A stretch of DNA of 64,000 nucleotides. Origin: Branchiostoma floridae. Lineage: Eukaryota > Chordata > Leptocardii > Amphioxiformes > Branchiostomatidae. Shown in pieces: positions 12,809 to 34,400 of this stretch; the stretch's first letter is position 1, and each line of letters starts with the position of its first letter. The stretch lies in NCBI RefSeq assembly GCF_000003815.2, contig NC_049985.1:9538247-9602246 (forward strand), written 5' to 3'. The notes below the pieces were generated by a model, which was not told where the DNA came from, ran no database searches, and saw only the letters and a program-made list of their open reading frames with translations. The translations under genes and the position numbers were made by a program.

Positions 12809-14363
12809 ATTCTGCAAGTGTTCCACCAGATGATCCCCATGCATATACATTTGTATAACAGGGTCTTGTTGAGTCTGATACATGGCATGTGCTTTGCTGA
12901 TGTTGAAACATTATGTTACAATGGTCACTAAGAATATATTTCAACTTTTTTTAGTGACATGATGCAGTAGCTACTACAATGGCTTTTGACCATTTAAGTA
13001 GGAATAGCATACATAACCTACAAAAATAAATGCATTCTAAAATTTTACCCCTTCAGCCATATAATCGAAATATTTCAATACACTGATTGCACCAAAAGTA
13101 TACCATATATTTACATGACCTGACGTCTCATTCTGTACTCATCAAAATAATGTTTTCCTGAGAACAGGTATTAATTGATTCCGTTACAAGTCAGTCTTTT
13201 GCCTAAATAGATGCAAGTGACAAGGCACACTTTGGTTAAGTCACAAAGTATTGGTTCCAGTGAAGCTGGTGTGTTTCGCTGAAGGGTGATTATACTTAAT
13301 ACAGCCATTGATAGTCTATCTTTGTGGTACAGGTTAATTGTTTTCACAGAAAACATCTAGTCAAGTTTCTGACAATTGTGTCCAGTCTAGCCAGACGTGT
13401 AGATATGTTCAGCCTGAGGTCTTCATTTGCTGGTCCAGGTTCAGTCACACATTCAGTACACATTCCTCAGTATTTCTTCACCAATGCAACACAAAGTTGA
13501 TTTCATGGATAACATTTACAATGATGTAAGTTGATTGTAGACATTGATTTTTTTAACATGCATTGCTTGCACACCTTCCGGTTGCACACCTGGTAAATGA
13601 AGACATCTCTGTGACCTTAAAGCTACCACAAACTGAAAGGTGTAACAGCTGTCATGACAAGTGAGCAAGTGTAGCAAATCTCAAGAAATGTCTTGCACTC
13701 TGCTCTGACTCTAGGTGACAAGGGCTTGACAACCATGATATCAGGTTCATGTGGCTTAAGTACACATTTTTTAAATGTTAGCTAAGTTATCTACAACCGC
13801 AGTGTCAATCTGTTGTCTTGAAACTGGAATTTCAGTTACATGATAGTTTTAGACAATAGCAACAGCTGCTTTTATAATCTAATTATGTTTAAATAATTCA
13901 ATAATCTTTGCTGCAGTACTGCTGACATACAGTATACATACTAAGGAACATACCCTGCAAATTATACTATTTCCACCAGGCACCTTAGCACGAAATTGCA
14001 CACACAAAAATAACCCATGTGCTCAATATGCAATAAATTGCACATGTAAAAAGGAGGGACAAGTGATATCATCAATGCTCTGCTTGTCATAGCAAAAGCT
14101 CTGCTACACCACAAACAAAACCATTTAAGTAGATTACATTACCAGAAGATTATGACAACATACATCAAAGCATGCGTCAAATATGACCTTAAAACTTCTG
14201 CAAAATATCTGATCTTCCATCTGAGAACAGCTTCAAAATCAATTCGAGTTTGATTTATCTTCCATTAACAAGTTTGCCACAACAGACTCCTGCATGTAGG
14301 TAAGGCACAAACTTTGGTTTACTGGCAAAGTGATTTGTCTCTGATTAAAAGCTGCCACACAGT

Positions 14364-14536
14364 TAGTCTCCAAGCAGACCCAACGGTGCCTTAGAGATAG
14401 TATCAAAGCTGGCAAAGGAGAATAGCCGGCCAAAGGGAGATAGCCGGCTAAGGGAGTCAAACGGGCACCGCTATACTAAGTCCCTGGCCAGCTTTGATAC
14501 TATTTCTAAGGCACCGTAGGGTCTGCTTGGAGACTA
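14364..14536. mobile_element. 173-bp MITE with perfect 9-bp target-site duplication
   Basis: The terminal inverted repeats start TAGTCTCCAAGCAGACCC and extend inward through GGTGCCTTAGA and ATAGTATCAAAGCTGGC with few mismatches. The 9-bp direct repeat CCACACAGT flanks it exactly (355-363 and 537-545 of the 14 kb block). It lies in the presumed 3' UTR of the transporter, so its transcript could form a long hairpin. No coding content. Confidence 0.92.
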
Positions 14537-14915
14537 CCACACAGTGTGCTGTAGTTGAATCTTTTTCCACTTAGACTACAATCTTGAAATTTGAATATTG
14601 AAACACTGTTGGTATGGTATGACTGTCATTAAGAGGGACAAAATATAATCGGAATGTACTAAATTAAGTCTTAAATATGTCCTGTATATATATCTATTGC
14701 ATCAAGAGGTATTTGAGAAAAATATTAAAGAATTGAAACAACAGAACTCTAACTTAAAATTTCAAATTCTAGTTCAGATGAATAGAACTATAAAGAAAAC
14801 CTGCAAATTTACCCACCAGGTAAAACCTAATTGGTATTTATGTAAATACAATATATGTACTGATTATAGAATGGACATTTGTGCAACAACACTACAATAT
14901 TTTGGATACAGTTAA

Positions 14916-17900
14916 TCAAATGGTCCCATTCAGTGTTTGGTTGAGTGAATGGAATGTTCTTGTTGTCACGACATCCATTCCTCCATCTGTTGCTGATGAC
15001 TTGGGCAGCATCCTCTGTAAGGCATCCATGGTACCTACAACTGACCTGTGGGATGGATATGAACATTCTTAGGACTTTAACCCTCAAACCATCGTAGCTT
15101 TTTTGTGACGTAGATTACCGTATGGGGTCAAAACTGACCCCAAAACATTTTGTACAAATACAGTTTTTTGTGTGACTCTTTTTGTGATTTGTATATATGT
15201 TTAGTTTCATTAATCTATGTGGAACAGTCTGACATGAATAGGTGAGAATATTTCTAGCTCATTATCATAATTTATGCAAAAGATCATGAGGACCACATTT
15301 TACACCAATGCTATTCAGACCGGGAAGGAGGTTTTTGATGCCAAATTCAATGCCGTATAGCGCCTGAATGGCTCATGCTAGGGCCACCAAACTTGGTAAC
15401 ATTTTAGAAAATGTTGAAAGCAAACATTTTCAGTGAACAAAGTATGTTCATCATTTTTCATGTTGCCATGGCAACGAAATTCTGACAGACATAGTTATTG
15501 CTAATTATTATTATTATTAAGTTTTCTTATTTTGTATCAAACATTTAAGTTTTAAGGTTTTCTTAGCAGATATCAGTTGTTTATCACATCTTATGAAATT
15601 TATGCTAATTTAATGACGTCATCAGGCAAAATCCAAGATGGCGGCCGAGATTACCTAAATGACGTCATAATGTAGTCATATAACATGATATTGGCACAAA
15701 AGCTGTTACAATAATTTTAGCTTACATGTACATCATTCTCTGAAAGTTTGGTGATCCTACGATAAGTAGTTCAGGTGTGGGTCGCAAAAGTTTGTTTAAA
15801 AAAATGCTGGGGTCAGTTTTGACCCCACTGGACCATACATAAACTTTCTAAGATAACTTAATCAATAATGAGCCAATCTCGTTAAAAATGTATAAGAAGT
15901 TATAGGACATATATACAAACAAACTAATGGGAGGAAATTTGTTTTCGACCAGAAATGCCATGATGGCACACATCGATATACGCCTGGGGTCAGTTTTGAC
16001 CCCATACGGTGGTTTGAGGGTTAAGAAACAGGAGCCCTGAAAATGCATTTTATGGCTCTTAATCACAGTGTATATCATCATGGTATCACACGAATGTCGG
16101 ATGACTCGGACCATTACCAACTCGGCCCAGTCAACTCGGCCCATCTGCCGGGACAACTCGGACCATCGCCAGCGATTTGGGACGTCAAAGTCACAGCTAG
16201 AAGTTGTCTGACAAAAAGCCGCCGTCTCTATAAGTCTATTCAAAATCACGTTGATTGCCTTAGCGCCGGCGGTTTGGGACGTCAAAAACGTTAACAGCTA
16301 GAAGTTGTCGGTCAGAGGCCCAGTGCATGCTGCTGGGAACTTGTCTATGGTAGAAAAATCCACCATTGTTCGTAAGGTAAAAAGCAAATGAGCGGAAACA
16401 AACGTTGTGTTTTATTTTGTCCAGACTACATACACCAGTATATGAACAGTTTGTTGAGGGAAATCATCTCAGTAAGCAGAACATTTCACAAAGACCAGGT
16501 ATATCTAAGTATAAATGTATCTTTAAGCTTATGTACAACTTGTGCCGGACACAGCCGGCCGACGTGACGTGACTAGGCCCGCCGGCGAGTTCGTCGCTTA
16601 ATATATACATGTTGAGTACTTTGCTACATTTTGTTTAAATATTGTCCATGGGGATGGTCCGACTTGTCCATGGGCATGGTCCAAGTTGACCAGATTTCCA
16701 ATGGGCCGACTTGGTAATGGTCCGAGTCGTCCTGATTCCGTATCACACATGTGCACCATCATTACTGACATTGATATTGATCCAGTAGGTTCTCCTGTAG
16801 TTCTCATTACAGATACAAGTTTCAATGTCCTTCTATAGCATCAACTTCTTTCCAAGGACAGCAAAATTATGGAACCCTCTCCTTTCAAGTGTTTTCGTCC
16901 CAAATAGGGCCACAAGCCTTCGATAAACCAACTTTCACAGGGCTTTAGCCAGCTCGAATTTTTTTTCCGTCATCCAATTACAATCGTCGCGAAAACCGCG
17001 AAAATTAATTAGAAGGACTGAACTGAGACCTTGAAAAACGGGTTTTAATGAGATTATCGTATGCGAAAGGGCTCCGACACACATTGTCAACAATCATAAC
17101 AATAGCAAAACAAACAGTGTGTGGCTTTTACGGCTGTGGACGGCGTCCCCAAGCCGCCTGTAACTTTCACCAAGGATTTTTGTCCGTCAAGGTTGACGGA
17201 TTGGTTTTAAAAATTTTCCGTCAGACGCAGCAAATTTCCGTCAATTGACGGAAAAACGGACGCTGGCTAGACCCCTGAACTTTCATCTCCTAGCACAGTT
17301 ACCTGTATCTCTCACTAACCTACTTCAGTGGCTACAAAGGTCTCCTGGCTTTGTACTGAATATGCTCATTGAAAAGGTAGCTTATGAGCATTCTACTGTA
17401 ATAGATTGGGGGTAACAAAGGGGATATTGGGAATAATTTTAGCAAATTGGCAGTTCTACAAAATATGCACTTACCCTACAACTCCTAATACAATGAAGAA
17501 GACATCCAGGGCATAATGGCACTTGCTTATAGACCTGGGGAAAACAAGAACAAAGGTTCATTTTTGTCTCATCACATTGGTGAAGTACTCCTGCATAATA
17601 GGACAGCAAGATGATAGAATGTGTTGTAATATGTTGTAAAAGGGAACCCAAGTCCTTATTATGTATTCTGTTGCAAAACATGGTTTCCATATCCACTCTG
17701 TATTTGGTTTGGGATCAGGAGGGGTCACTATCCATAAATAAAGTCACATTTGGATGAACTGGCTTCAGACTAACTGAATCTCACATCTAGCAACCATCCC
17801 ACTGGTCAGACCTGAACCTTGGACAGTAGGATCTTGTGTAGCACAGACAACCCTTAACACAGGTTTGACTCTCCCAACAATGCCTTGCAATATCAACCTG

Positions 17901-20900
17901 ATTGGCTGACAGTTGGTTAGTGGCCACGTCCCTAATACCATTTTCTGAGTCTGAAAGGGCAGGGTTGATATTGTGAGACATTGCTGTGAGAGTCAGCTCT
18001 GTATGGGAGGGTGAACACAGGCTAGCTTGAGACTTACTCCCTGTGTATTCTCATATGGAAGAGTCCTGGCAGGATGAAAGCCAGTAAGGCACAGCAGGTG
18101 GAGCCCAGGAGGGACATGATGGTGGAGAAACTGGGGATGAGCAGCACCACCATCCCTGTGGTCAGCACCAGGCATGCACGCAGGGTGTTCTGAAACATAC
18201 CCAAAGTTGAAGACACAACAGGAATTTGACATGTCTTCCAAATTTTTCGAATAAGTTTGACAAAGCAGAGATTTTCACGCTATTTCCGTAAACATCTTAG
18301 CAACAAGTTTTCAATCAGTCCTAGCCAATCATACCCCCCCAACTTCACTCTCCCTATGGCCTGTTGCCTTCAGAGATGAACTTTCATTTTGAAGAAAATT
18401 AAAAATAACAGCATTAATTCTCTAGCTACGTATTCATACCACATGCACAGGTTAAATACATACTAAGTGAAAAAGAAGAAGCAGTTATTACCTACCCCAA
18501 GGAAGGTTTGTTTCAGTGGGTCCCTGAACCATTTCTTCTCCAGAATCTGGACCACAGGGAACATCATCACTACAGAAACACCAAAAACACTCATACATCA
18601 AGGAAAAATACAAGTAGAATGTGTTCATAGGCAATGATGGTTATCTCCACTTTTAATTCAGCAAAGTTTCTTTTGCATTTGAATATGTGATGGATAGGTG
18701 CTTGCTTGCTTGTAAATCGTAATATAACTATTTCCTTTGGATCTCAATGTTTTGCTATTGTTACGAGTAAAATCAATGTGCATTAAAACAAAGAGTTGCT
18801 ATTACAAAATGGCTTACCTGGGTATGTGAAGAATAGAGAGAAGCAAAGGCAGCCTTTTACCAACAGAGGGAATACACCTGTGGGAAAAACAAAAATATCT
18901 CCTGTAAGATATATTACAGCAGTGAGTTTTCATTAGGTTATGTGATGTTAAACAGTATTGGGATATGATCTTACATATCATAACATATATAGAACGATTA
19001 ACCATAAAAGTCAAATTGAATGCCACTTTCTCCAACTGAACTACATGTAATTGTATGTAAAATGTTCACCTGGCGGCAGATTCAGTGTGATGATACTGTT
19101 GGTTTCTGGTCCAAAAGACTGAGAATGGAGAAATGGTGAGTTTGTCACACCTTGTTACAGAGTACATAACGAAACATCGGGACATACCAAGTAAATAGAC
19201 ACTTTCCCTACGGCAAATACTACTCAGAGTTATTACTAGCATTAATCATAAGCTCAATCAAATCTTAAAACTAAAACAATGCAACTCTTCAGTGATAGTA
19301 CGTTAAGTACCCATTACACATAACGCATGCAACATAGAGGAGAACAAGTGTCTTACCAGGTATCCACAGACCCCAAACACCAGGTACAGGGTGGTGACAA
19401 CAAACATGGTGAAGATAAATATTCTGGAAAATCAGGGGAAATGGCAGCCATCAGTTATTTCATTGTTCGAGTATATGTGAATGTGTGTTACAAAGAATTT
19501 CAAAATTTGAAGTTATACTTATGCAGTTTCTGTAGGCTCACTTTCTGAATAACGGTTTGCTGTCTTTTGCTGCTGATGCTTCCAGTGCAAGGATCATGCC
19601 TGCCCCCTAGTGACAGAAGGAAGAAAAGCAAGCATTTAAGTTTGAAAAGTTTAGCACAAAAAAGTGACATTTTAGTTTTCCTGAGAAAGTTTAAATACTG
19701 ACTAAAACGTAAAAGCTTTAATGTTACTTCTAATGAAAATGCCTTAAAATTTGCGGATAGAACAGCTACATATATGAGGTTACATTACATATAATTACGT
19801 ACTCACCTCATAACAGTAGATGGCCATGCCAAAGAACATGGGTACACCATCCAAAGTCATCAGCTTCGGATGAAGCCTGAAACCACCACACACCACCGTT
19901 ACCACCACCATCCCTACACTACCCTGCTGCCACTACTGGTCAGTCTGGCATTACCAGACCATGGTAGTCACAGCAAAGCTGCCATCTATGTCTGAAGTGG
20001 TTGGCTATAGTTCAAATTGACTTGGATCACTGGGATGGAGTGAACAGGACACCCTTCACTTTTATCTGGAGTGATCTAAATCCAAGATTTCAACCTGCTA
20101 TGAAGTTGGATGCAAACTTCATTAAAAAAAACCTACAGGTTCAAAATAACTTTAATAGGCCAAGTCAATTCAAGTTGTAGCCAGTCACCAAGACCTTTTC
20201 AGTGTTGACCTTAATTCCCTGTACAAAGATAAAGTGACACAGCACAGGTATATCTATGGTACATGTAGGTCATCTACCTACAATGTACGGTCCAGCTGAA
20301 TTTGGCATTCATAATTAAATTTCATAGATTCATAAATTGTCCAGGAGAAAAACGTGGTAGGGTAGGGTAGGGGTAGGGTTCAAAACAAAACAACAAAATA
20401 ACAAAAGTTCCTTCAGTTTGCAATTAGGACCTTGCAAGAACAACTTGAAGAATGACAAATATTAAATCAAAGTGAACCTTCACTGAACTTTACAAATACC
20501 ATGTTGTTTAAGAACTTGTTGATATGCCTGTGTCATCTCATCTTTAAGCAAGAAAAATAAGGAAGTGCTGTTAGTTCATGAACCACTAGATGTCCCCACA
20601 GACCAAGAGTATCGTTGTCACCTCATAACAGTAGATGCTTATCGCAAACATGAAGCTTAGGCGATTCCAGTCATACATTTTAGGGCTGACACTGAAAAAA
20701 TATCAAGTTACAGAGATGTTTATTTCCATATCATACTGAACAGTATGTTATGGTACATTTCATCTAATTTCATCTCATTGTTAAACAAGTGGGACAGACC
20801 ATTGGTGGAGATGATAGGAGTTGTTGTTGCAGTATCTAGAACCTTATAAATATCACATTCATTTTGTTGTTGAATGGTGCAAAGATTTGGGTTTAAGAAG

Positions 20901-23900
20901 AGTCACTATTGATGATATGCAATACAGTATTACAATAACATGAAATCAACAAACACAATGAGGTGATTTGGCAGATAGCAAATCATGATTGTATGGTTCT
21001 ACTGATTCTAGTCTATTGGTAGACATTGGGCTATTCCATTTCAAAATTGGCGGGTGAAACTGTCCGGAAAGCTTTTCAAAATGAAGGAGAAGGAAACATA
21101 GCAGGATTATAGCCTTTTTGTAATGGAAGGGAATATCCATGCATGTGAACTTGCTGGTTACACATGGCATAAGAAAGATAGTTACTAAGTTAGTTCCAGG
21201 GTTAGTGCTTAAACTTAAGACACAGTGTGAAAACCTTCCAGACACCCATTTCCAATATTCAAAATGTACTAGCCCTTCTATTCTGTCTCAGGTGGCATGC
21301 AAGAGAATTCTGGATTGGCGTTCTGATTCTGTTTTCTGAGAAATGCATCTCTTTGTTGCTGTGTTTTCCCACCTACTTTGGTTCTTGGATGTAATCTCCA
21401 CTATGGATAGTCTCCACCCTACCAAACAATGTGCAGCAGCGTGAATACTAAACAAGCAGCACGGGAGAGAAAAACGTAGGAAGAGACCTGACAAGTTACT
21501 GGGTGCTGCAATTTGACAGTGAGATAATTCTCCATCTTGATAGACTGAACCAATTGAAGTATTTGATTAATTATAACAACTGGTCAATTTAGGAATAAGT
21601 GTAATATGCAGCATCAAATAACTTGACACATGTGCAAATTAAGCGAAGAAAACAAAAAGCAAAACAACATAAAACAAAGCAAAAGGGACAACAAGTGCAC
21701 TACACACTTGGCATTGTCTATTTTCAATTTTCTTTCAATTCCCACTGGCCAGGATTTTTCTAGCACCTTGATATGATGCTTGATTTATATATTTCTTTCA
21801 TTCAAACAGTGAGTTAAACCAATTTATCATTTTTCCTTTCCCAATAATGCTGCTGTATTGGTTACAGGTAAGAAACAAAAGATGGTGCAATTTAGTGATT
21901 CCAGTGTTAGTTGATAGCCCAGGAGTCATGTGCTCAAAGCAACTCTCACACACATAATGTTATGGCAGGGCATTAGCCAGCGTCCGTTTTTCCGTCAATT
22001 GACGGAAATTTGTTGCATGTGACAGAAAATTTTTTAAACCAATCCGTCAACCTTGACGGACAAAAATTCTTGGTGGAAGCTACAGGTGGCTTGGGGACGC
22101 TGTCCACGGCCGTAAAAGCCACATACTGTTTGTCTTGCTATTGTTATGACAATGACAATGTGTGTCGGCGCCCTTTCGCATACGATAATCTCATTAAAAA
22201 CCCGTTTTTCAAGGTTTCATTTCAGTCTTTGTAACTTAGTTTTCGCGGTTTTCGCGACAACTGGAGTTGGCTGACGGAAAAAAATTTCGAGCTGGCTAGA
22301 GCCCTGTGTTTATGGGTTGTTTCCCTCCCATTTATTAGTTTGTGTAGTATAACATACCAGCACATGGAAGACAACCTGATTAGCATGAAAGTTCATCTGA
22401 GTTAGTGAATTACATTACGAACAGTCAGCTGTGTGCCGACTCAAGATTTAATTGCTCAGACCCTGATCTGACCCAAGTCTATTAGATGGAAAGAATTTAT
22501 GCAATGATCTCCAACAAAACGTTCTGTCTAATGTGATTCAGTCAGACAGCCGTACAGGACTGAAAGATTCCGTCATACATTCTGGCGAGTCCAGATCTTT
22601 TAGTTGTCCAATAGTACAATTTCTTCATAACATTATCTGATTAGATCTGCCTGGAGCTAAAAATTCGCTATTTGCCAAATCATTTCACAAAACAACACAT
22701 GACGGGTGCCACAACTGTGACCCCCTACATGTTAAAGAAACACAATTGTGTGATGACAACGGATCACTTGACAGGTGTCAATCACTTACCTGACTTTGCT
22801 GACATGTTCAAAGTCAAACCAGAAGACCACACCGTATGCAAAGACATTGGCAAAGTCAGCAAACAAACTGGAGTGGAAACAAATATGGGGTGTCAGACAG
22901 TCAAAAAAGATAACAACTGAATATCGTCAAAAAGAGGTGGACAAGATAAGTTTGGATGATGTTGAGAAAAAATGACACCAGATATGTAAAGTTGGGCAGT
23001 ATCTCATACATAAGTTTTTACTTGAATCAACTTGCTTTGGTTTTAACTTTTTTCCTGTTTGTTGACTAAATACCTGTTTGTGTGTGTTTGTTTGTTTGTT
23101 TGTTTGTTTACAAAAGGGGTGAGAAATGATACTATTCCACAATATTCTTCCAAAAGAACTTTTCTTCAATGACATTATTTTAAAGAAATCACGAAGCTGT
23201 GTCTTCAGAAGGTCATGCCCCCTACCTGAAGATAGCCAGGTTACTGAGCTGTCTCAGCATGGTCAGTATGGCGAGTGGTGGCAGCAGGATCAGCAACCAT
23301 TGGTACCTACGGAACATAATTGAAAGTTTATTGCAATATTATGCCCGGGGGCTAATTGCAAGTACATGGTGGAAACATAGGGGACATAAATGTGACAATA
23401 AACAGTGATAAACATTATTGTAAAAAGAGGCTACTTGAATCCTACTGTTGACTATTTCTAAACAGGTTGGGTTTGACTCGATTTTTGGAAAATGAAGAGC
23501 CTCACTAGGGCAGGCATTTCTTCAACATGACTGGTGCACTGGCCTGAATGTTCACCTTGTATTTGGTTTTGACTTCGATCCCTGCTCAAGCCATACCAAA
23601 GACTTTAAAAATGGTACACATTGCTTTCTCTGCTTAGCACTCAGTATTTGGGAAAGAGTATAGTAGTTGAACACACTTACTACCAGTAGACTAGCCCCCT
23701 GCTGTAGTGATAGCACTAAGCAGTGTGGCCCAAGGTCAATTGATACAGAGATGGAAGCCACCCTATGTAGCATCTGGTGCAGGAAGCACTTTAACTTAAA
23801 GTTAACATCAACAGAACTCTTTCCACAAGGTGTGAAACTACAGTTCTACACTCGAGATATCATTTCTATTGTAACTCTGAGGGTACATATCCTTTTCACA

Positions 23901-26900
23901 TTATACAATGCCCTCATTCAGTAGTCAAAGCTGTACCCGCATAGCGAATCATGCACACTACTTTCACATGTCAGATATATGTACATACATGAAGCATACT
24001 TACATGTGGGAGTTATCCACATAGTGCATAAGGTTCTGTGAGATGAATATGATATAAGAACAGCAGAAGCCTACAAGGAAAATAAGGAGATCACTTAGTC
24101 TTAGTGGGTTCACTCACCACCTACACTCACTCAGAATACATAAGATAGGTAAGATGCTACCATGATTTCAAAAAGACTGGTTACAGAGGCCAAGGGTTCA
24201 ACTTTTATGGTGTAAATTGACAGTGATAAGTATGAATGAAAGGACCAGCATTACATTCATAGTATCCAATCATAGATCAAATTAAGCCTTCTTTCACCTG
24301 GATCACACCGTACATAGCTGATAACAAATAACACTTTAGTGAGTGAACTGGTCCATAGCAGGAATAGGGGTCAAAACATGTAGACAACTGGCTTTTGGGG
24401 TTTGGATGGGATATCATTGGGAATCAGGCAGATGGAATACAAATGAAGTAAAAGTCTGTTGTTTGATACAAGTAAGAGTGGATTTCCATCATCTGGTATA
24501 ATACTTCACTGCAATGTCAAGGCTTCAGAGTGAATCAGATACAGTATTTCACTGCGGCAGATTGGAGGATGATTTTATCATTAAGTCAAGGTTATGGTAC
24601 AGAAGGTCAGGATGCAGGGCAACAACAGGACAAATAGTTTATCCGTCAACCTTGCCTGAGGGGTGGTACGCTCCGGCTAGTCCATTCAAATAGGGGGGAA
24701 CAGAATGAGATCTTTTGAGTCAAAAGGAGGTAAAAAATGTGCCAGGTGGTTGCTATGGCAAGTCTGACTGTAGTAAAAAAGTGACATACAAGATTAATAG
24801 TATTGCTGAGCAATATCGATGTCCATACGTTTGAGTTACAAACATACATTACTTTGCTCAATACCTATGAATGCTACCAATTTAATATTTCAAGGCAAGG
24901 TCTTGTAACCCCCTCACCTGTTTGTGACACAACAATGGAACATTCCACAAGCTGCCTTCCTACTGGTCCAATAGCATGGTATCCTGAAATTTGATAACAA
25001 CAAACACAATTTTGTACAAAAAATAAACATTGTCATATGCCCACAGGCAAATTCATCATTCATTGTTGATCCGATGTTGTGATAACGTTACACTGTCACA
25101 TGGACATCATTGTGGCCAAGCTACTAGTCAATCCTTGTACATTATTGTCCTGTCACCAACTCAACTCACAATTATACTAAATTATGCATGTACAGATCAG
25201 TGTGTCAAAAGGTTCATCACAATAGTAGAAGAAAAGTACAGTCAGTCAGATTTGACTAGACAAGCAGGGCTATGACAAGTTATCTACAGAGTAAGAGAAA
25301 TCATGTCAGTTGTTTGTCTTTCTATTTCCATCCCTCTTATATGGTCAAAACTGCCTAAGAAGACCTACTTTAATTGTCCGAGCTTATATTAATGGAAAAG
25401 TTATATAAGGGACCATCATATTGATCATTTTGGCCTTGTGGTCCTTAGTACTAGTAGGTAGGGATGGTGACTTGTACAGGTTTGACTTAATTTTTTTCCA
25501 AGACAAAGACACACATCCAGTAATACACACAATAAGAGCATGGTTTATAGCCAGCAACACTTAACATATCCAGCAGCAATCTTCTAAGCTAGAAATATTT
25601 GTAGATCAACATTCAAGAAAGTATTTGACCCCAATGTGAGGAGCACCCTTACCTGATGGCAGACCAGTGTAGTAGTAGTAGTTGAGTGTACTTACCAACA
25701 TCTCCATAGTCCAGCTCTTCTAAATGGTGGTCCTGTCAAAACAAAATTACACTTTGTATAATCTAGCATTATTTAGCATTTGGTTTAGCAAGTTTCTGTT
25801 TTGCAGGACAGCAGTTAAATAAATGTGAGTAAAATTAGATAAACAGAAATAATCCTTACAAAAGCCTGATGACCCTAGCCTTTTTGGGGTAGATCATTGA
25901 CATGGGACATAAGATTTTTGATAATTTTCTATCACTCTAATTTTTTCAGGACCATAAGCTAAAACACAACGTTACTTTCCCTAGGCTTTCCTAACCCTTT
26001 TTCTCAGTCCCTTGAGTTGTTGTTGAAACCATGTGTCATTGTACTTACAAAAGATGACTGTCGTCTGTGCTGTTTTCCACCTGTCTTGAGATCCCCATTG
26101 TTTTCACCGTGTGCTGAATCCCCATCTAACAGGACCTCCATCTCAATGTCTGCTGCAAACTCCTTGTCATCTGTCCTCTTTGGTCTCTTGTCTCTGTTGA
26201 TTTTGTATTTACTGTCTATGATCATCAGCATGGCTTTCACACTGTAAGAGAGGTGTTACCAATCGTCAGTATCTTAACAACATATGTGTAACAATGAAAT
26301 ATGGTAAATGCAATTGAGTCAACAAAAAAATCAAATATTATAGTAGCAGTAAAGATTGATACATTTCAATCGCTCAAAATGTTTTAATTTGGGGGCTTGC
26401 TTTTAGTAATCCGAAATAACTAAGTTGAGAATAAGACTTTCAATGAACTGAAATCAATGTAGCTTAAAACTTTGCATTGGCTTTTATAATGTTAGATGTG
26501 CACATCAAAAGCACATAATGATAAATCAACAAAAAACAAGTTGTACCTGAGGACACCAACTGCAGACATGATGACCATCCCCTCGATTATTCCAGCCTAT
26601 GACAACAACAAAAAACATTATTTCACTTTCACTCTAATTTGCTGTGTATCATTCAATAACGTTAGACTTTCATGTGTTCAGTATTGTTTTGATGCAAAGT
26701 CACTAAGACTTATTTTGGTTATCTGTACCGAAAAGGACATAAAGAGTAGTCAATTGGAGTGACTACAGTCAAGGGAGGCAGATTGTGAATGTGACAGTAT
26801 CTCCAGCGGTACCTATTTGCTGTTCTACTATACTCTTATGCTATATTGCTTGTCTTGTGTATGTACTTTTGTTCCATTGAATAAAGACTGAAAAAAAATG

Positions 26901-27642
26901 CCATTCAGGCCATGGCCTTGGGCTGCAAGCAGTTCTATTCAATGAACAAGTCTAACAGTTATAGTACAGACAACACATGTTGTCTGTTAGTAATGTTACA
27001 CTGATCAATAACATGTTTCATGTTGCACAGCCCAGACTTCTACAGAAAGAAGGTAAATGCAACTAATAATAAATACTATGAGTGACAGCAGAATGTCGGA
27101 GGCACATTTGCAAAACTGTCACCACAACACCTTTTTTCCCCAAAAAATTTCTACTGCACTATAAAAATAGACTGATTTTGGTACCTCATTGTTACTGTTA
27201 GTAGCCAAAACAACTATGGTGGTGTCTGGTGACGTGTTTTGGGAATGGTGACAGGAGTTTGACAGTTAATCATTTGTTTACATTACGGCCTTGTAACAGA
27301 ATTTTGAACCTCCAGACCATTTGTGAAATACTGTTTCACGCAAGACGTCTACGTTTTCTCTGTACTACTACACGGTGTGTGCGTTACGTATGGCACACTT
27401 GTTAAAAGTGTGTCGGTTGTCAACTAAAATATTTCACCACGATCATCTCATGTGACGCGTCATGACGTTATTCCTAACATGTTATAACCTGAAGAGACAT
27501 GGGGAACGTATCAAGTTACCTCCTTGAAGGCATAAGGAACACCAAGTACTCCTGCTCCGATGAAGGAGATGAAGATGTTGGCGAAGATCTTGAGGGGGTG
27601 CCTGGTGCCCTCCCCATCCCCGCCTCCACCGCCGACAGACAT
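14916..27642 (-). CDS. AAAP-family amino acid transporter (SLC36/AVT3-like), complete
   Basis: Coding exons (minus): 27642-27520, 26596-26547, 26241-26049, 25732-25696, 24983-24918, 24070-24004, 23306-23226, 22867-22790, then either 20685-20622 or 19876-19807, 19606-19542, 19423-19357, 19118-19070, 18877-18818, 18569-18496, 18189-18038, 17534-17475, 15045-14916. All borders are GT/AG and all phases agree, giving 471 or 473 residues. The family signature is clear: HPLKIFANIFISFIGAGVLG then VPYAFKE in helix 1 (residues 16-41), SQTGFCCSYIIFISQN in helix 3, and EGAGMILALE in helix 6; I expect about 11 helices. A charged loop (about 67-135) separates helices 2 and 3. The C-terminus has two N-glycosylation sequons (NQT, NGT). 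AAAP proteins carry amino acids across plasma or lysosomal membranes, often with protons; substrate cannot be read from sequence. The start is the only Met in the open frame before the conserved block. Confidence 0.94.
15077..16024. mobile_element. 948-bp non-autonomous element bounded by TTAA (piggyBac- or Kolobok-like)
   Basis: Both ends are TTAA followed by the inverted repeat CCCTCAAACCA. The motif GGGGTCAAAACTGACCCC is near the left end, again near 15810-15830 and at the right end, so the subterminal regions are repetitive. TTAA duplication is typical of piggyBac and Kolobok superfamilies; I see no transposase frame. It lies in the last transporter intron, with its edge only 31 bp from the exon 17 acceptor. 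Confidence 0.85.
15614..15667. promoter_or_regulatory. Two CRE palindromes flanking a YY1-type motif inside the TTAA element
   Basis: TGACGTCA (full CREB/ATF palindrome) occurs at 15614-15621 and 15660-15667, with AAGATGGCGGC (YY1 consensus) at 15635-15645 between them. The cluster lies in the middle of the transposable element. Function is inferred from motifs only. Confidence 0.5.
16092..16739. mobile_element. 648-bp DNA transposon derivative with perfect 9-bp duplication
   Basis: The inverted repeats share GACTCGGACCATTACCAA and a following TCGGCCCA block; several further copies of the ACTCGGACCAT/GGTCCGAGT motif lie just inside both ends. GTATCACAC is duplicated exactly at 16083-16091 and 16740-16748. 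There is no transposase frame, so it depends on a partner elsewhere. Confidence 0.88.
16938..17277 (+). mobile_element. hAT-type MITE, copy 1 (340 bp)
   Basis: Its ends are CAGGGCTTTAGCCAGC and the complement of CAGGGGTCTAGCCAGC; CAGGG termini are typical of hAT elements. The 8-bp duplication AACTTTCA flanks it exactly (16930-16937 and 17278-17285), also as in hAT. Internal repeats of TCCGTCAATTGACGGA are visible. It has no transposase. A second copy lies inverted at 21966-22306. Confidence 0.92.
19807..20685 (-). other. Mutually exclusive exon pair 9a/9b of the transporter
   Basis: Exon 9a (20685-20622, 64 nt) and exon 9b (19876-19807, 70 nt) both accept the two-base phase left by exon 8 and both end in codons for IYCYE at phase 0. 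9a codes SPKMYDWNRLSFMFAIS and 9b codes RLHPKLMTLDGVPMFFGMA before that shared end. Neither length is divisible by three: joining both, or skipping both, shifts the frame, and 9a followed by 9b reaches a TGA at the end of 9b. The pair therefore must be used one at a time. It forms the first half of predicted helix 6, directly before the EGAGM motif. 9b (FFGMAIY) is closer to the family consensus; 9a is divergent. Confidence 0.9.
21966..22306 (-). mobile_element. hAT-type MITE, copy 2 (341 bp), inverted relative to copy 1
   Basis: The ends CAGGGCATTAGCCAGC and GCTGGCTAGAGCCCTG match copy 1 at 16938-17277 in reverse orientation, and the interior aligns through most of its length (TCCGTCAA...TTGACGGA blocks, GGGGACGC, CGCATACGATAATCTCATTA). 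The flanks TGTTATGG and TGTTTATGG look like a duplication with one inserted base. It lies in transporter intron 8. Confidence 0.88.
23084..23109. repeat. (TTTG)n microsatellite
   Basis: About six perfect units of GTTT follow a short GTGTGT run, in transporter intron 7. Confidence 0.8.
25391..25497 (-). repeat. Dispersed repeat, inverted copy of 3465-3556
   Basis: On the minus strand this starts AGTCAAACCTGTACAAGTCA and then follows the same order of GGACCA, GGCCAA, GGTCC and CTTTTCCA blocks as the copy at 3465. It lies in transporter intron 4. Boundaries are approximate. Confidence 0.6.
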
Positions 27643-29854
27643 TTTCTCGATATCCGGCTCTTCTGTGCGTAGCTTTTTTCCATCAACAACGATGTTAAAC
27701 TGTTTCCTGAGTGCACAGTGCCTGCGTGGCAGTATCCGGTGCGTCAGGAAGACAATGTTGAGTCCTTGGGACAGGTAAGAGCTTGGCCGGACTCAGGTAA
27801 CACCCTGGCCACGTCGCGCAGCCACATAATAACTAACCACACAAACAGGTCAAAGGTCATATCTGGACGATACCATTACAGCACGTGGTGGGGAATCTGG
27901 GGATGGTCAATACCCAGTGTGAATGTTTTACGGTGCCTTGTACAATGCTAATGTCACACTGAGAGGAAACCAATGTCTTGAAGTAACTAACGCCTAAAGT
28001 GATCATTCATAGTACATGGGTGCAGTTTTCAAAATGCCGAATGACAAAGTTACAGTTGTATCTCATTGGCCCTTTATATTACATGACAATACTCAATAAA
28101 ACAGTTGGCGTCTTTTGCGCGGCTCTCTGGTCAACATTTCATTCTTCAAAGCAAGGAGCTTTTACCAACAGGAGAGAGCACATATTACTGATTCATTACT
28201 TTCTTTTGTTCCTATGTTCGTAGCGAGTGTGACCAGAAAATCCCCTTGTTCAAAGTTGTACCGATAAAACGTTACCAACATGATTCTCGCTATGTTTTAT
28301 AACTGTTTAATAAAAGCCCACACTGTTTTCAGTACAGGTATTTCCCCAAGAACACACACTAGTCTCCAGGTAGTCTCTAGCCAGCCCCTTTAGCTGGCTC
28401 TACAAGTCGTTTTGTTTTATTGCGGCATAATAGTTCTATAACTATTGCCCTAGCTATATAGGCCGCTGTGGTCAGCCTCCATAGACATCGTTAGAGGCCG
28501 TTGCATATACGTACATGACAGACTGCCAAGAACCTATCCAGGTGAATTGACGTGGCATTGATATTGAGGGGGAGTTTCAGATAAGTGTCACCATGTACAA
28601 AAGAAAAACTGCCCTAAAAATAGAAGTAGCCGACTCCTGCGACATAAAGAAGTCAATCGAAGTTGACGGTAAGGTGCATTACTGCGCATGGCTGATAACG
28701 CACACGATCAATTCTAAGCTCGAGAGGTCAAGCGCCGGAGTCGTGACGAAAATGGCTCTAACAAGCTGATCTCAGATAGGCCCTTGGAAAGAATCGCCTT
28801 CCTAGAAGATGTCTATAAAGGAGAGTGCGTAGGCTTTTATTTCGCATTAGATTATCATTGTGACGTCCCCACCCACGCCATACAGGCTGCGCTACGCGGG
28901 GAATGGCTTAGTAAAATCCATACCGCAACTGCGCACACACAAAACGTCAGCGTACGTCATTGTTACTGTGGTAGCAGACAGGTCTATGTGCGAGATAACG
29001 TGCTCTCACGGCTGTACCTCAAACTGTGGTCTAGACATTACTGAATTCTCAGGATATAAATCAGATTCGAACGTACTGTGCGTCCGTAATTAGCATGGTT
29101 CGATATCTCAAATATATTTGCTTCACCGGGAATGACAAAATGATCGTTTAATTTCCTTTCATTACAAAATTTGGCAAGAAGATCAGTGACGTCATTGGTA
29201 AAAACGAGTTGTTCTAAGTATTTCTGCACTGAATTGGACTTAATTTAAGAAAGCTCTTACCACGTGTAACAAGCTTAAGATCCCACGAGTCCGCCAACGT
29301 CGCAATATATAGATACAGACTAGATATAACCAAGGAGGTGATATAACAATGTTGAGCCACATTTTCCCATGCAGCGTTGAATAGGCACTTTATAGATATC
29401 TAGGGGATTTTTAAAGCCACTAACTTCCCACCGTGACAAGAATGTCTGACAAAGCTTGAGTAGCCGTCCAAGAACTCCCCACAAAACGAGAACAAGTCAA
29501 CATTGGTAAAAACGTCATCTCCACAGAGGAACAATACCAAATATGGGGAAGGTAATAAGGTTTAGGTATTACGGAACTTCTACGAAGGTGCCGACGCAGT
29601 CAATGCGAAAGCGTGTCCGTAAACGACTTCACCTGCGTTTGTTCCATATCGCCAATTCGGAACACGTCCGCGTGTCTGGTTCTGTGAGCATGAATAACGT
29701 CATCTTGTACTCTCCCTAACGGCGCGCCCTTTCACTTCTACTTGCCGGTCCAGCCACATACGATCACCCGCTGCTTCCACAAAATCTGATGTCTTCTTCC
29801 GTTTCAAGTCATAAGTCTTAAAATTAACAATTTCTATTCTTCGTGGAATTGAAT

Positions 29855-29947
29855 AAGTTACATACGACACATATTATCATGATCATAAATGTAACGTCAT
29901 AAAGTTACATACGACACATATTATCATGATCATAAATGTAACGTCAT
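29855..29947. repeat. Two-copy 47-bp tandem duplication
   Basis: Copies start at 29855 and 29902 and are identical through their visible length (AAGTTACATACGACACATAT and onward to AACGTCAT). Each copy includes the palindrome ATCATGATCAT-like core. Perfect identity points to a recent duplication or an assembly artefact. Confidence 0.9.
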
Positions 29948-30622
29948 ATCTGTACATTCAAGGAGCTTTTATATACTAGTATAGCATAGCTAATGCTATA
30001 TCTGTTTTCTATCTATACTTTTGCGTTTAACCATTGTGGGCTTAACTGCCTCGAGAAAATGATAATTCCTTTGTGGTGCGGGTCGTGTTGTATTAGAGTG
30101 GACCATTTCTGTCTGACACACGAGGGAATTGCTTTTCTTCTATCTCCAAACGTGCCAGTTTATTGTACTCCCTGGGGCAAATCCGGCTAACACCACGGTC
30201 GGGCTTGTACGTGATATTGCATTCTGTACGATTTCCACAACATATCTCACGGGCTGAGCAATCCACTAAAAATGCACCTTAAATCTAATAGCCATCCACG
30301 ATAATAGCGGATGGAGCCATATAAAAATATCCATTCAGACAATGCGTTTTAATAATCATTCAGAAACACTAGTAGTCAGGACAGAGATTATATGATGTAC
30401 GGCACGTTTGTAATAAACGTCATTTCTGTTGCCCAAACATGATATCGGGGTTTGTTTTTGAAGTACACATCCATTATCCAAGCTTTAGCCGGCCATATCT
30501 GACGTGTGTCCTTCCACAAAGATCACGTCCTTGCGTTAGCAGTCGTGACTGGGGAGCGAATACTCGACGCGGTAATCGGCCAGCTTTCTTTCCATTCCAG
30601 TGGTGTAAGAAAGCTGTCTAAT

Positions 30623-31445: not shown

Positions 31446-34400
31446 TCATACCCACTGGAAAAAGGGACATTGTTTTCCCCGTTCCAGACGACAGGTGTAA
31501 AAGTTCTTGCCGTTATTAACACCCTGCTTTAGAACAGTCCTCTTGACACAACGTTTCCCATGGTTACACAGGGGAAAATTGTCATCAGCCCACTGGAAAA
31601 AAAGCAAATATTTTGTCATTACTTTCATGTCAAGTATAAAATGGTCGTAAATTGCTAGCAAATATTTGTTTTCTTCAATTTCTAACCTGCTTGCATGCAT
31701 TGCTCTTGGACATGAAACAAATGGAAAATAAAATTTCCTTTTCCCAAATGGGCCATTGAAACAGTGGATATGGTGCTACCTTTAAACAAAGGACATTATG
31801 TATTTGTGTTAATACCATTAATAGTTACAAAGACTGAACAAGGACGCAACTGAATAACTGACCTGAAAGAATTGGCACTGTTTTCCTCGAGGCATGGAGC
31901 AACAGAAGAATGGGCGACCATAGTTATCTCCCTTCTTCCTGGCAGTCCTTTCTACACACACCTTGTTGTGCTGCTTGCAGCACATGACTGTATTACTTCC
32001 TTCAGTACCCCTGGCCACTTTGGATCCATTACTGTGAAAAGTGATTTCATGTTGTGGTCTTTCCAATCTGTTGCCGGCAGCATCTGAATTAAACCCAATC
32101 GCTGCCGACGGTACACGCGTGCCCGAGGGGCTTGTTAATGGTGCTGACTCTAATCTAGCTAGCTTGCCAGAGGCAGGAATGGTTGGCTTTGTGACTATCA
32201 CACCTGAGCTGCAAGGCAATTCTCTTTTCCGCGATACCTGTCCGTTACATGGAGAAGGCGTCCCATCTGGCACCGATGGCAATGAAGAGTGAACACTATC
32301 GCCATCGCTAGTCGCAATAACTCGTTGCAACTGCTCTCGGCTATTTTCTGGTTCACTTCTAGGCCCTTCACAAACGAGGCATACCTTAGTGTCCCCATCA
32401 TTTACCAGAGTGCACAGTGAACAGGTCCACTCTGTATCGGACAAACGTCCTGTGGAGGACAGAGGTTTGGGTGACCCACATGCTGAACACATTCCTGCTT
32501 TTCCTTTATTGATTAAGGTGCAGACTGAACATGTCCATTCCTGGTCATCAGCTCTTGAATGGCCTCCAGTGGTAACCCAGCCAATAAGGCTGTTCTTTGT
32601 GGGCAAAATCCTGCAAACAAAAATAGTCAAAGTCACATTCAAGTCTTAATATCAATCACTGGGGCTGCAATGTTCCAACTACAACTTCAGTGAAATACCT
32701 GACCTGGAATGTGTTTGGAAATTTCTAAACCTTTGTGCTTGATACAAAATCTTTCAGTGCAGTAGTCACAAAGGATAATGCCTTATTTCCATAGTCTCAG
32801 GAAGGAAAATAGATTGCCCCCTTCAACTTTGAAGACAGATGTATAGTTATCACTACTAAATCTGTTTGAACTCTAGTCCAATCATACTCTTAAGATGCTG
32901 TGTTCTCTATAGCTACTTGCCTCGCAGAAGAGGATTAACTTATTGTGTTCAATAATTGTGACAAAAAAGATGGGTTTTATTCCTCTAGAATCATTTAGGA
33001 AGGCTAAATCAGCTTTAGAGGAGATTGAAGAAAATAATACTCTGGTGTTTGCATGATCATTTCCGTCCCAATGTTAGGAGGAGGATAATCTAAAAGACTG
33101 AAGTCACCCAAATTTAATGTTGGTACAGAGGGGAGGGAAAATAAATGCTATGCCCTCCCCAAAATGGCATGCTTTACCCAAAAAGATAAGTTGCAGGGGT
33201 CACTTAATGTCTATTCATCATGTCCACAAAGTCAAAATACACAGCCATATGACTTTCACTATATATGTTTATCTAAAGTACCAAGCAATGCTTTCGAGCA
33301 TCCATATTTGATTGCTGTCCAAGTTCATCGACTTCTATATGAACTCTACTAAAACTCTCAATGTGGGAGGAGATAAAACGACATGCAGAGGTAACCAGCG
33401 GGCAATAAAGATGACTCATCTGTTCTTTCTACAGTAATAGTGCATTTTCATTCCAATATTTCATAGCAGGTGTTGTGTACAAGTCAAACACACACTTAAT
33501 GAGACTGAGATGTACCCAAAATAAAGTGACCTTTCCAACAGTTGCCAGCCATCTCTGTGAAAAGGTTATGAATGGAGACTTGATTCCTGAAGAGTCATAA
33601 CTACATGTTTGAACCAGTTTGCCATCAATCAATGCAGATTGCCATTTTGAGAAATCTAAGGGTCCCCCTGCTCCATGAACTTGCAGGTTGAACAAGAATA
33701 ACAAAGAGATTGACAGGAGACATCGGTCTTGCAGCAAATCATGCGCAATAAGGATCACTAATGAAGGGACCCAAATCAAAGGGGTTCTCTTACATGTTGA
33801 TGGCAGCTGGTCCTGTAGCCATGTTTTTTGTACCCCAAAATGTCATGTAAGACCTCACCATTAACCCTGAATAGTCAGCACATCACTGCCAGTAGAATGG
33901 CAAACATGTTTTTGTCATAGCCCTGAATGCACTAACAATGAGCAGGATGCCTCTTTGCAGCTTGTGTCATCTGCCTATGTCACACTGTTAGATCAGTGAT
34001 ACATGTCATTAAGTGAAGTCAAATTGGACACACAGCCAGTCTCCATGTGACTAGACGCTTGTGTCAATCTGAAAATAGTGTAGTGGATCTACCAGCCATA
34101 AAAAACATGCATCTAGTGAGTAATACAGGGTGGGGTGGGGTGGGTATAAATTAAGGCTTTCCTTTGAGAGAAGGAATCACTTTGGGGCTGAGAATTTGGG
34201 TATTGGTCAAACAAAAAATTCTCCGCTCTCTGCTTTGTAACCTGTTTCCACTATACATGTCCAAGTGGGACTGCTGGCAACATGCTTCCTCTTAGGAGAC
34301 AGTCATATGTTCTGACAAACCCATGTCCCGAAACCCCTAATAATATGTTCTGATTCCCCCACATTCTGTCATCCCTATATGTTAGGGTTACTTAGGGGTG

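Follow-up and report, generated by a model that had tools for sequence, protein, structure and literature searches.

Does the SLC36/PAT-like gene at this amphioxus locus hold two usable versions of one exon, and what would change in the transporter if one were exchanged for the other? The window, by which we mean the whole stretch of 64,000 nucleotides that was analysed, is part of contig C7, and the genome searched comprised 513.4 Mb in 431 contigs. The gene was rebuilt on the minus strand of the window, from 27642 to 14916, with 17 exon positions counted from the start codon (Table 1). All of its internal exon borders were AG / GT. Position 9 was represented by two versions, labelled 9a and 9b.

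Table 1. Exons of the SLC36/PAT-like gene and elements beside the duplicated exon, in positions of the window. Slashes mark exon borders.
Feature	Position	Strand	Remarks
Exon 1	27520..27642	-	Start codon at 27642; TM1 with FIGAGVLGVPYAF
Exon 8 (upstream, common to both isoforms)	22790..22867	-	Donor CAG/GTAAGT, scoring 12.6 in the gene's own matrix
Exon 9a, 70 nt	20622..20691	-	SVSPKMYDWNRLSFMFAISIYCYE, its first codon shared with exon 8; donor GAG/GTGACA (5.5)
Six bases separating the alternative in-frame starts for 9a	20686..20691	-	Start 20685 is the second AG
Exon 9b, 70 nt	19807..19876	-	RLHPKLMTLDGVPMFFGMAIYCYE; donor GAG/GTGAGT (10.4)
GU-rich tract preceding 9b	19877..19914	-	GGGATGGTGGTGGTAACGGTGGTGTGTGGTGGTTTCAG; 9/18 pyrimidines, the lowest among 18 acceptor rows
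Exon 10 (downstream, common to both isoforms)	19542..19606	-	Starts with GAGM at the TM6 break
Exons 11-17	14916..19423	-	The 17th ends with the stop codon at 14916
Exons 11, 12, 13	19423-19357, 19118-19070, 18877-18818	-	
Exons 14, 15, 16	18569-18496, 18189-18038, 17534-17475	-	
Exon 17	15045 to 14916, stop codon at end	-	

Judged by domain and structure matches, the encoded protein is a member of the AAAP / Aa_trans family, with PAT1 as the nearest relative among solved structures. The Pfam domain Aa_trans (PF01490, cut-off 25.6) was matched with 274 bits when the protein was assembled with 9b and with 270.5 bits when assembled with 9a. A PDB search returned PAT1 (SLC36A1, PDB 9v3t) as the best solved relative (134 bits, E 6.2e-38 with 9b; 131.7 bits, E 3.4e-37 with 9a). 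For both isoforms the PAT1 alignment was colinear through TM6 and free of gaps there.

The two versions of exon 9 were equal in length (70 nt), had AG/GT borders, were entered in phase 2 and left in phase 0, and contained no stop codon. Exon 8 leaves in phase 2; the split codon is completed by 9a or 9b alike, and exon 10 then begins with a whole codon. Their peptides aligned without gaps over 24 residues, of which 8 were identical and 14 BLOSUM62-positive, and both ended in IYCYE. The preliminary description had read the two as alternative versions of one position from these same phases and ends, and the reconstruction agrees with it. The coordinates that it gave for 9a were right at the end (20622), but the start at 20685 is corrected here to 20691. 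Two in-frame acceptor AGs lie six bases apart, 20691 using the first and 20685 the second. The first is preferred because it directly follows the T-run and gives an exon of 70 nt, like 9b.

At the nucleotide level 39 of the 70 bases were identical between 9a and 9b, including every one of the last 16. We scored against 9b every open AG-GT candidate of 40-100 nt in the right phase, 1674 and 1567 on the window's two strands. Exon 9b itself scored 134 and 9a scored 48, followed by alternative borders of 9a (36, 28 and 16), while the top unrelated candidate in the window reached 9. Relative to the score of 9b, that of 9a was 0.36 in the window scan and 0.38 in a scan of introns, against a threshold of 0.15, which corresponds to the 15% similarity default given by Pillmann et al. 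(PMC3228551). As a control, each of 15 internal exon positions was checked for duplicates of its own exon in the adjacent introns. This yielded 291 candidates (0 for exon 3), of which three exceeded 15%, all at position 9; they represented borders of 9a, the third being so assigned from the window scan. For the other internal exons that had candidates, no duplicate above 15% was found in the adjoining introns. The first 19 residues of 9a and 9b scored above chance as well, an equal score being reached in 45 of 100,000 permutations, so the similarity was not confined to IYCYE. By these measures the homology of 9a and 9b is far above chance.

A 20-base identical run (CATCTACTGTTATGAG/GTGA) spans the 3′ exon border at 20618-20637 in 9a and at 19803-19822 in 9b, with dissimilar neighbouring introns. 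A splicing signal in common or a short gene conversion are both possible sources of this run. The synonymous bases in IYCYE were also identical, for which the chance was 0.03 by the codon usage of the gene; a splicing signal or short gene conversion could account for this too.

Either exon taken alone, 9a or 9b, gave a complete protein of 473 residues. With neither exon the frame closed after 235 residues. In a human survey, 377 clusters of mutually exclusive exons (60%) had lengths indivisible by three (PMC5740500), and frame-based exclusion is therefore a usual safeguard. Because the two exons have equal length and phase, and both or neither shift the frame, position 9 is best read as a choice between mutually exclusive exons. 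We consider it likely that this is an old tandem exon duplication with 9a and 9b used singly, the swap most likely tuning gating, access or affinity. In each transcript the spliceosome would place either 9a or 9b between exons 8 and 10. Double inclusion or skipping of the 70-nt exons would shift the frame and give a truncated product, presumably cleared by nonsense-mediated decay, and the choice of exon may depend on tissue or stage. In this way a single gene can probably give rise to two carriers, distinguished only by the outer portion of one core helix. The frame itself suggests another role. Joint inclusion of 9a and 9b led to a stop after 277 residues, and 9a could act mainly as a poison exon that lowers the level of the transporter by this frameshift. 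Such a role requires neither homology to 9b nor an in-phase full-length isoform, yet 9a has both, and we regard it as very improbable.

Mutually exclusive use supposes that 9a is alive. An open frame of 23 codons is weak evidence of this if taken alone. No similarity between the introns flanking 9a and those flanking 9b was detected, in register or by gapped alignment. In register there were 17 identities in 50 bases upstream and 15 in 50 downstream. The scores of gapped local alignments were reached by 252 of 300 shuffles for 300 bases upstream and by 219 of 300 for 199 bases downstream; for the nearest 100 flanking bases the counts were 127 and 78 of 300. For the exons themselves, none of 300 shuffles reached the score. 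A dead exon should decay like its introns, but the exons have stayed similar, and 9a is therefore likely to be under selection.

The splice sites were scored with donor and acceptor matrices built from the 15 other donors and acceptors of the gene. The donor of 9a, with a C at +5, scored 5.5 against 10.4 for 9b, and three of the 15 other donors lay below it. The acceptor of 9b was also the stronger one (7.8 against 4.3), with six of the 15 other acceptors scoring below 9a. The strengths are unequal, yet inside the gene's own range. The weaker donor is what might be expected if 9a were a dead or dying duplicate and 9b the sole exon used. Two further results point the same way: the first 19 codons showed a strong nonsynonymous difference (24 changes over 46.2 sites, which is high), and segment by segment 9b outscored 9a against all four family members compared (PAT1 and the paralogues L013, L017 and L018). 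In addition, some of the apparent conservation of 9a could be mimicked by gene conversion, if a short stretch at the 3′ end was recently converted. Nevertheless, we consider the loss of 9a unlikely. Its flanks have no detectable similarity to those of 9b, yet length, frame, both splice borders and the last 16 exon bases have been kept. The isoform with 9a loses just 3.5 Pfam bits, and against a paralogue on contig C2 it scored slightly above the isoform with 9b (77.0 vs 75.9 bits).

On the segment comparisons 9b is the family-typical form (VPMFFG) and 9a a derived form (LSFMFA). The first 19 residues of 9a fitted PAT1, the PAT-like paralogue on C7 and the paralogue on C13 above chance (25, 37 and 8 of 20,000 permutations, respectively), the latter two being regions L013 and L017. 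Against the C4 paralogue (L018) they did not stand out (1069 of 20,000). A tryptophan was common to 9a and PAT1 and absent from 9b, though as a single residue it is a lead only. The 9a stretch had one match in the genome, itself, and a repeat origin was rejected on this ground. Peptide searches with 9a and 9b detected this gene only, plus a weak match of 9b to a C7 paralogue (E 0.03). No sister gene with the same exon duplication was found among the eight paralogous regions read: TM6 was recognised once each in four of them (L013, L017, L018 and L020) and was not recognised in the other four. In L013 the TM5-TM6 stretch was one open piece.

If 9a and 9b are both alive and used singly, a device beyond the frame could help to keep them apart. 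Competing RNA pairing among the introns 8-9a, 9a-9b and 9b-10 was no better than shuffles in six of six duplex comparisons (the real pairing was equalled or surpassed by 26, 38, 9, 35, 23 and 26 of 40 shuffles), in a crude test that covered parts of the introns, for intron 8 its first and last 300 bases. Steric blocking was rejected, as the intron between 9a and 9b measures 745 nt and was judged too long. Incompatibility of splice types was rejected too, every border being GT-AG. A search of Rfam returned nothing at gathering score within 14000-28500. Splicing regulators recognise GU-rich tracts, and one such tract directly precedes 9b (Table 1).

What the swap would change can be read from the alignment to PAT1. 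Exon 9 aligned to the pre-TM6 loop and TM6a and ended just before the helix break, with TM6 and TM6a borders that we take to be those of the family. That half of helix 6 is rewritten, as proposed in the preliminary description, fits this ungapped alignment. The isoforms differed in 16 residues, all of them at least five residues before the last residue of the exon, and IYCYE-GAGM at the helix break was identical in both. Assuming that helix 6 contacts the substrate at the positions known from LeuT, its direct contacts are probably unchanged between the isoforms. Since the break and the five residues preceding it are constant and the differences lie farther out, the swap is more likely to alter gating, access, affinity or coupling than the chemistry of the pocket. 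Exchange of the pre-TM6 loop and outer TM6a would then tune outward-facing gating, access or affinity, and perhaps also proton coupling.

In LeuT-fold carriers the pocket is formed by TM1, 3, 6 and 8, and the substrate is held by main-chain hydrogen bonds to the unwound segments of TM1 and TM6 (PMC5809530). As TM6 contributes to the pocket and TM6a side chains change, both exons might be used while the swap remodels the pocket and changes the amino acids carried, which is compatible with the splicing part of our preferred explanation. We think this rather unlikely, because the residues adjoining the unwound segment (IYCYE-GAGM) are the same in both isoforms, with contact positions presumed from LeuT. 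Of the two effects suggested at the outset, different substrate preference or different gating, gating is accordingly the one that we favour, and the constancy of IYCYE-GAGM makes a change of substrate preference the less likely one.

Exon swapping is already known from other transporters. NKCC2 and SLC36-like carriers belong to the same superfamily. NKCC2 (SLC12A1) uses one of three homologous exons, 4B, 4A and 4F, and each version encodes 32 residues that cover TMD2 with a portion of the following loop, and determines the affinity for ions (PMC7818487). It differs from the present gene in being an ion cotransporter, in the helix affected and in having three exons. Moreover, an NKCC2 transcript with 4A and 4F keeps the frame, unlike one with 9a and 9b. 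Closer in substrate are the amino acid transporters CAT-2A/CAT-2B (SLC7A2) and zebrafish slc7a1a with exons 6a/6b; the alternative event in SLC7A2 sets low versus high affinity (PMC7584565). In these, however, the swapped part runs from TM8 to TM9 via a cytoplasmic loop, as against TM6a here, and the family is SLC7 and not AAAP. NKCC2 exon 4 and CAT-2 are precedents for a change of affinity by exon swap, and the SLC36-like gene is a credible new candidate for exon swapping.

In one open-access library, titles and abstract openings on mutually exclusive exons in SLC36, proton-coupled or other transmembrane amino acid transporters and amphioxus described no case of this kind. This is in line with the earlier statement that no case had been described in SLC36-type genes. 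To our knowledge, SLC36A1 (PAT1) has no alternative TM6 exon. It is conceivable, although somewhat short of probable, that this single AAAP gene makes two carriers in which the outer half of TM6a is swapped and the break residues are constant, a natural chimera in which gating and substrate binding are separated, perhaps the first in the SLC32/36/38 group, for which the literature was searched by the name SLC36. Gene models in databases may already include both isoforms. If both exons are used in RNA, the gene provides a matched transporter pair, 16 residues apart around one half-helix, and a ready-made test of the role of TM6a in gating and affinity of PAT-like carriers. It would also join NKCC2 and CAT-2 as a case of exon swapping that tunes LeuT-fold carriers.

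An inverted pair of a dispersed repeat of about 343 bp was present within the gene, at 21966-22308 in intron 8 and at 16936-17277 in intron 16. Over four pieces that overlap in part, its arms were 85-93% complementary, and the repeat had at least 40 matches in the genome (40 scored among 1618 first-look candidates). In the transcript, exons 9a to 16 lie between the two copies, and the pair could promote a hairpin or circular RNA. Upstream of the transporter, on the minus strand, pieces of another gene were found at 31446-32645. One ORF carried two stretches of RanBP-type zinc fingers together with a GRF zinc finger, and the next ORF carried a GRF zinc finger; we take these pieces to be NEIL3-like. 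Between this zinc-finger gene and the transporter, a 47-base tandem repeat was present in two perfect copies (29855-29948).
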